The notes under the pieces: model-generated
What the model was told of the DNA's origin: nothing
What the model saw: only the letters and a program-made list of their open reading frames with translations
Databases searched by the model: none
Source: Actinacidiphila glaucinigra
GTDB lineage: Bacteria; Actinomycetota; Actinomycetes; Streptomycetales; Streptomycetaceae
DNA: 64,000 bases
Assembly (NCBI RefSeq): GCF_900188405.1
Contig: NZ_FZOF01000012.1
Location: forward strand, 1-64,000
Direction: 5' to 3'
Shown: positions 45,069-45,185 of the stretch, in pieces
Layout: every line of letters starts with the position of its first letter
Position numbering within the stretch: the stretch's first letter is position 1
Made by a program: the position numbers and the translations under genes

Positions 45069-45074
45069 TACGAT
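45069..45074 (+). promoter_or_regulatory. -10 hexamer before the leader peptide
   Basis: TACGAT ends six bases before the ATG of the short Cys-rich frame. There is no ribosome site, so transcription probably begins at or next to the AUG, making the peptide leaderless. Confidence 0.55.
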
Positions 45075-45080
45075 GACCCC

Positions 45081-45185
45081 ATGGTTTCCCTCGACGTGAG
45101 CGACAAGGCGCCGGGCACGCTGCTCGTGGCGCGGCTGCACGTCGACCTGTGCCGCCTCGCCAGCGCGGCATGTCCGTGCGCCTGA
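45081..45185 (+). CDS. 34-residue Cys-rich leader peptide ahead of cysO-cysM
   Basis: A 35-codon frame encodes [12 protein letters not shown], then [22 protein letters not shown]. Three cysteines fall in the last eleven residues, with the block [12 protein letters not shown] resembling Streptomyces putative leader peptides. It ends 62 bases before cysO and begins behind a leaderless-type promoter. Such short Cys-rich frames act in mycobacteria as cysteine-responsive attenuators: ribosomes stall at Cys codons when charged tRNA-Cys is scarce, raising expression of the genes behind. I infer the same role; the downstream stem-loop logic was not seen by eye. Confidence 0.75.

Follow-up and report, generated by a model that had tools for sequence, protein, structure and literature searches.

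Organisation of the mec-cysO-cysM locus

The window analysed in this study is a 64,000-nucleotide stretch of Actinacidiphila glaucinigra DNA (contig NZ_FZOF01000012.1, positions 1 to 64,000), and the features of the locus all lie on its plus strand. The cysO gene (45248-45553) encodes a ubiquitin-like sulfur carrier of the ThiS/MoaD fold, recognised by PF02597 and by the SAMP1 and MoaD models. It is followed by the cysteine synthase gene cysM (45553-46503; TIGR01136, cysKM, 368.9 bits), the ATG of which shares one base with the cysO stop codon (TGATG). Upstream lies a mec-type gene for a JAB/MPN hydrolase (44589-45014; PF14464). The known mycobacterial cluster has the same gene order, mec-cysO-cysM; in the window, mec is set apart from cysO-cysM by a promoter-like hexamer and a short leader frame. 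The C terminus of CysO (45518-45550) carries GG followed by an 11-residue extension, and relatives mostly end in GG plus two residues (MA, MR or MV). Because of this extension, the C terminus would have to be trimmed before CysO could take its thiocarboxylate form, perhaps by the JAB protein encoded next to it.

The hexamer, TACGAT, is of the -10 type (45069-45074) and is separated by six nucleotides (GACCCC) from the ATG of the leader frame, downstream of the mec-type gene. The leader comprises 34 codons (45081-45185), from the ATG at 45081 to the TGA at 45183-45185, and a 62-nt spacer (45186-45247) lies between its stop codon and cysO. Three Cys residues fall within the last eleven of the peptide. 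In all of these coordinates, and in the number of Cys residues, we agree with the first-pass annotation, which had proposed that an unlabelled Cys-rich leader peptide gates cysO-cysM from a leaderless-type promoter, with tRNA-Cys scarcity as the signal. Two of the Cys codons are conserved among relatives. The first is codon 24 (45150-45152), in HVDLCR, written TGC by 89 of the 90 cysO leaders aligned; the second is codon 31, TGT (45171-45173), proposed as the sensor codon.

The leader belongs to a catalogued family of putative leader peptides

The window peptide matched NCBIfam model NF042934 (cis_reg_atten, 'putative leader peptide') at 35.7 bits against a cut-off of 27, over positions 1-19 of 19, and scored 34.9 bits in the genome search. 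The matched stretch (45117-45173) covers codons 13-31, and the peptide stands, as a short frame, directly before a cysteine gene pair, 62 nt ahead of cysO-cysM. Judged by this match, the leader is already a member of a catalogued family, and 'unlabelled' was not quite the right word for it. It is not separable from NF042934, within which the cysO leaders form a subfamily marked by a fixed first Cys (HVDLCR) and by an additional block conserved at the N terminus (MV..DVS.K.PG).

Five places in the A. glaucinigra genome, the window leader included, exceed the NF042934 cut-off, and about six relatives are present when weaker matches are counted, mostly before sulfur genes. The genes that follow them, named from their translations and not from profile searches, encode an LLM-type monooxygenase, a sulfonate ABC permease, a sulfite reductase, a sulfurtransferase, an isopenicillin-N-synthase-like oxygenase and an ABC binding protein. 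That relatives precede the sulfite reductase, sulfonate permease, sulfurtransferase and other genes speaks for the proposed role of the peptide as a cysteine sensor acting in cis. NF042934 was found in all 121 genomes sampled from the taxonomic family (3-14 copies each) and in none of 14 control genomes; elsewhere in the phylum it thins out (19 of 296 genomes). A search of plasmids for annotated copies returned weak, unannotated matches only.

Conservation and coding evidence

Conservation was assessed over 105 distinct cysO upstream regions. A 12-residue peptide motif was present at 98 of these loci and the TACGAT-type promoter pattern likewise at 98, with both together at 94; at every one of these 94 the spacer between hexamer and ATG is exactly 6 nt. 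The frame is open from the conserved ATG through the motif at 92 of the 105 loci. Substitutions in the motif block follow the leader frame (pN/pS 0.109/0.258 in frame 0; the remaining frames give 0.174/0.142 and 0.195/0.082), and on the antisense strand of the block there was no synonymous excess comparable to that of frame 0. The conserved coding signal with synonymous excess that had been put forward as a check was thus present, and in frame 0 only. The synonymous rate of the leader (0.258) is close to that of cysO itself (0.246), which argues that the leader body is held as a peptide and not as RNA.

Length differences among the leaders, which range from 3 to 60 nt, preserve the reading frame. 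An in-frame insertion of about 57-60 nt occurs at the same point, before ARLHVDL, at four loci (L039, L059, L082 and L106). At two further loci (L040 and L042) the first frame ends early and translation of the same peptide can resume at an overlapping ATGA. Seven of the 105 loci are without the peptide motif, and most of these retain the hexamer or promoter region; the leader peptide is therefore dispensable, a point against a sensor role. Taken together, the other patterns indicate that the window frame is a conserved coding ORF and a real leader peptide, of a kind that stands directly before cysO-cysM throughout the Streptomycetaceae.

At the 5' end, the DNA at 45081-45098 is near-invariant outside six free bases (ATGGTT-N6-GACGTG), and the rare Val codon GTT within the ATGGTT block is found in 90 of 92 cysO leaders.

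The GTG codons at 45096 and 45126 were considered as internal starts and rejected, the upstream ATG with its fixed hexamer spacing being kept in 94 of 94 loci. An internal start in general may nevertheless be used, given the two genomes that restart near the codon matching 45096. A simple sigma-70 two-hexamer scan gave no match at the locus, and no -35 partner was found for the hexamer. The leaderless-type promoter of the first-pass annotation has the invariant 6-nt spacing in its favour but lacks a recognisable -35, and the leaderless start at the leader ATG is a putative one.

A near-fixed TGT codon in the leader

The second conserved Cys is kept in 88 of the 92 in-frame cysO leaders and is encoded by TGT in 88 of 88; in the remaining four orthologues (L066, L078, L041 and L099) it is replaced by Gly or a stop, which likewise counts against a sensor role. 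Across NF042934, the same Cys is TGT in 102 of 103 distinct members with a recognisable motif, a set that includes some cysO leaders and so overlaps in kind with the 88. Other Cys codons within the family motif are mostly TGC (47 TGC vs 7 TGT), as are those after it (25 vs 10), against a genomic background of 33 TGT in 627 (5.3%). When peptides were clustered at 60% identity, 10 of 11 clusters were all-TGT (binomial p 1.7e-12, a value that treats clusters as independent, which paralogues strictly are not). As for the Cys-rich tail, the three Cys residues are real in the window, but the third (CPCA) occurs in only a few relatives. The conserved design, as read from the alignments, is instead a fixed peptide body with two Cys residues, the second nearly always TGT.

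Both tRNA-Cys genes found carry the anticodon GCA, so UGU would be read only by G:U wobble. One of them, a divergent second copy, lies within the window (15427-15500, minus strand); the other, on a different contig, is part of a Gly-Cys-Val-Val tRNA cluster. Two explanations for the preference were rejected: a dedicated UGU tRNA, by these same anticodons, and RNA pairing, since the predicted fold pairs UGU with GCA, to which UGC would pair better. We infer that TGT is preferred because UGU is decoded more slowly. The invariant rare codon makes tRNA-Cys decoding the likeliest signal, which accords with the tRNA-Cys scarcity first suggested. Near-fixed TGT is a clean case of synonymous-codon selection in a regulatory peptide, and a one-base change from TGT to TGC should alter sensitivity while leaving the peptide unchanged.

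A second leader family in the Streptosporangiaceae

A short ORF ending FLF.H....VVYDC, usually with one further residue, was often found before cysO in another family (f84), identified as the Streptosporangiaceae by a named example, Acrocarpospora (L121). A degenerate pattern allowing either TGC or TGT detected this leader in 63 of 151 genomes, once in each, and the Cys codon was TGT in 63 of 63; a reversed control pattern gave zero matches in the same 151 genomes. A TANNNT hexamer stands 6-7 nt ahead of the start at each of the 30 loci that were read, and cysO lies 52-191 nt downstream at 29 of them. Loci with this leader upstream of cysO are L388-L417, L356, L359, L367, L371 and L121. No NCBIfam or Pfam model matched it, and it is an uncatalogued leader of leaderless type, unrelated in sequence to the NF042934 leader of cysO.

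The presence of an unrelated leader at the same place gives independent support to control of cysO by a Cys leader. It suggests that such control of cysO arose at least twice, or that the two peptides have diverged past recognition with the codon retained. More broadly, in actinobacterial Cys attenuators of this type the sensing codon could be UGU, a rare, wobble-read synonym, with selection on decoding speed letting a single Cys codon replace a poly-Cys run; the NF042934 and FLF.H....VVYDC families would then have reached the same rule separately. We hold the chances for and against this generalisation to be evenly balanced.

Proposed mechanism and the output step

We propose that the leader ORF is probably a cis-acting cysteine sensor for cysO-cysM, working through stall-controlled expression. 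RNA polymerase would start at or beside the leader ATG and a ribosome would initiate on the leaderless mRNA. After making the conserved peptide body, it would meet the second Cys codon, UGU, with its G:U wobble. With plentiful Cys-tRNA the ribosome would finish and leave, and most transcripts or translation events would fail before cysO; with scarce Cys-tRNA it would stall at UGU and cysO-cysM would be expressed. The conserved nascent chain R-L-H-V-D-L-C-R probably deepens the stall. In the favoured version of the last step, the stalled ribosome would act as in tnaC and keep Rho from terminating transcription in the spacer, which is C-rich and unstructured. The transcription start, the stalling and the response to cysteine are predicted parts of the model; what the sequences themselves establish is the conserved reading frame, its place in the genome and in NF042934, the codon rule and the tRNA-Cys anticodons. 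CysO/CysM makes cysteine from a protein-bound thiocarboxylate, and the locus offers a direct and testable answer to how this route is switched on.

For the last step, no terminator-like site was found after the leader at the locus, and no conserved alternative antiterminator stems were found; the Rho-independent terminator and antiterminator of a trp-type attenuator are therefore not seen here. A search of Rfam with the leader gave no match at E up to 1, and the fold of the whole window leader was not significant (z -0.47). An intrinsic terminator that escaped recognition is an improbable last step. The spacer has a C content of 0.55 and a G content of 0.19, beyond all 89 of the crudely called intergenic segments used as background, and its orthologues average the 95th percentile. 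Spacers of the genus fold worse than shuffled sequences (mean z +1.0), and Rho is present in the genome. C-rich, G-poor, unstructured RNA in a genome with Rho is what a Rho-dependent leader would have, which is suggestive and not proof. The sulfite reductase and LLM leaders reach only the 81st and 69th percentiles, and the spacers before cysO in the Streptosporangiaceae are much less C-rich (C 0.36, G 0.25) and so do not strengthen the Rho reading. From composition, Rho-dependent termination, with the spacer as candidate loading region, is our favoured last step, held tentatively and at a little under even confidence.

Translational attenuation would place the output at cysO itself: mRNA structure would hide the cysO Shine-Dalgarno sequence until a ribosome stalled at the Cys codons opened it. 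The same model has been put forward for related mycobacterial Cys leaders (Canestrari 2020, as summarised in PMC13236596), and the predicted accessibility of the Shine-Dalgarno sequence in the cysO leaders is indeed low (mean 0.13). However, a ribosome placed at the first Cys codon, at UGU or at the stop codon changed this predicted accessibility by about 0.00 on average in 58 leaders; thermodynamic folding of GC-rich RNA is weak evidence. Alifold on three clades returned only invariant or lineage-specific stems, with no structure common to the clades and no convincing covariation. We regard translational control as possible but unlikely, though likelier than an intrinsic terminator.

Somewhat less likely than translational control is an arrest peptide of the TnaC kind, in which the nascent chain, and not tRNA-Cys charging, would sense cysteine or a sulfur metabolite and the codon would be secondary. 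Conservation of the R-L-H-V-D-L-x-R body reaches well past the Cys codons, its synonymous sites varying as in cysO, and the VVYDC leaders likewise have a long conserved body. A pure nascent-chain sensor would need Cys and not UGU, however, and the sharing of a rare invariant codon by two unrelated families speaks for decoding. That the conserved amino acids mark a functional small protein acting in trans, with the regulatory reading wrong, is very improbable, since a single genome has members of the family immediately ahead of different sulfur genes and a protein product would not require a fixed synonymous TGT. Least credible is that the frame arose by chance or comes along with a conserved DNA element such as an operator or promoter-proximal sequence: the near-invariant first 18 nt, with GTT in 90 of 92 leaders, parts of which persist at some peptide-less loci, would fit it, but the frame-specific substitutions, the in-frame insertions and the restart at L040 and L042 oppose it and already contradict it for the motif block.

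The sensing of cysteine by decoding at UGU remains our preferred reading, and the comparative sequence evidence gives good support, in outline, to the idea of a leaderless attenuator that would sense cysteine for cysO-cysM. Gating by a Cys leader gains this support from two families; poly-Cys proved not to be the design, and no attenuator structure was found.

Comparison with known systems

In E. coli tnaC, a ribosome stalled near the leader stop codon blocks loading of Rho just downstream. The logic proposed here is alike, with a different peptide and inducer and with a Rho step that is so far conjectural. The mycobacterial leaders Ms5788A and Ms4527A (NF042933 and NF042936; Canestrari 2020), which are of leaderless type, resemble the window leader, with its putative leaderless start, in being short, with Cys near the end and placed before cysteine genes. 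The window peptide scores 17.2 and 19.7 bits with these models, below the cut-off of 45 in both cases. With the Ms5788A model, the sulfurtransferase leader of the same genome falls just short of the cut-off, at 44.0 of 45 bits, and through it NF042934 and the mycobacterial group are tied together. The window leader differs from Ms5788A and Ms4527A in having two separated conserved Cys and no Cys run, and in that folding of 58 leaders predicts no switch hiding the ribosome binding site, on prediction only. For the Cys leaders of M. smegmatis, the model in print is the translational one, as summarised in PMC13236596.

Literature searches of open-licence papers found no description of how CysO/CysM is switched on in Streptomyces and relatives, and no leader peptides for Streptomyces CysO/CysM or sulfite reductase; absence from this body of papers is weak evidence. 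Seliverstov et al. (2005) described leaders of cys or cbs operons in Mycobacterium, Propionibacterium and Bifidobacterium as short ORFs with Cys codons near the stop and, having found no terminator, suggested Rho-dependent termination for the mycobacterial cys leaders on negative evidence similar to ours (PMC1262725, in the sections used here). Their leaders have Cys runs, in contrast to the two separate codons found here, and those same sections mention no comparable leader, whether for Streptomyces cys genes or ahead of cysO (PMC1262725). The reannotation of S. lividans lists eight leader peptides, none of them before a cysteine biosynthesis gene (PMC8079986). One of its entries, the 'metL' leader of metNIQ, ends RCMCRRMCAF, with three Cys, and is annotated as a methionine leader (PMC8079986, Table 4); it may be a cysteine leader.

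Ribosome-mediated attenuation with conserved Cys codons has also been proposed for uORFC-8-2, located before cysS in the Rhodobacterales (PMC8632094). That leader differs from ours in having an intrinsic terminator and tandem Cys codons, and in it UGC dominates, the opposite of the TGT rule described here (PMC8632094). What is new relative to these systems is the TGT rule, together with the second family of leaders.
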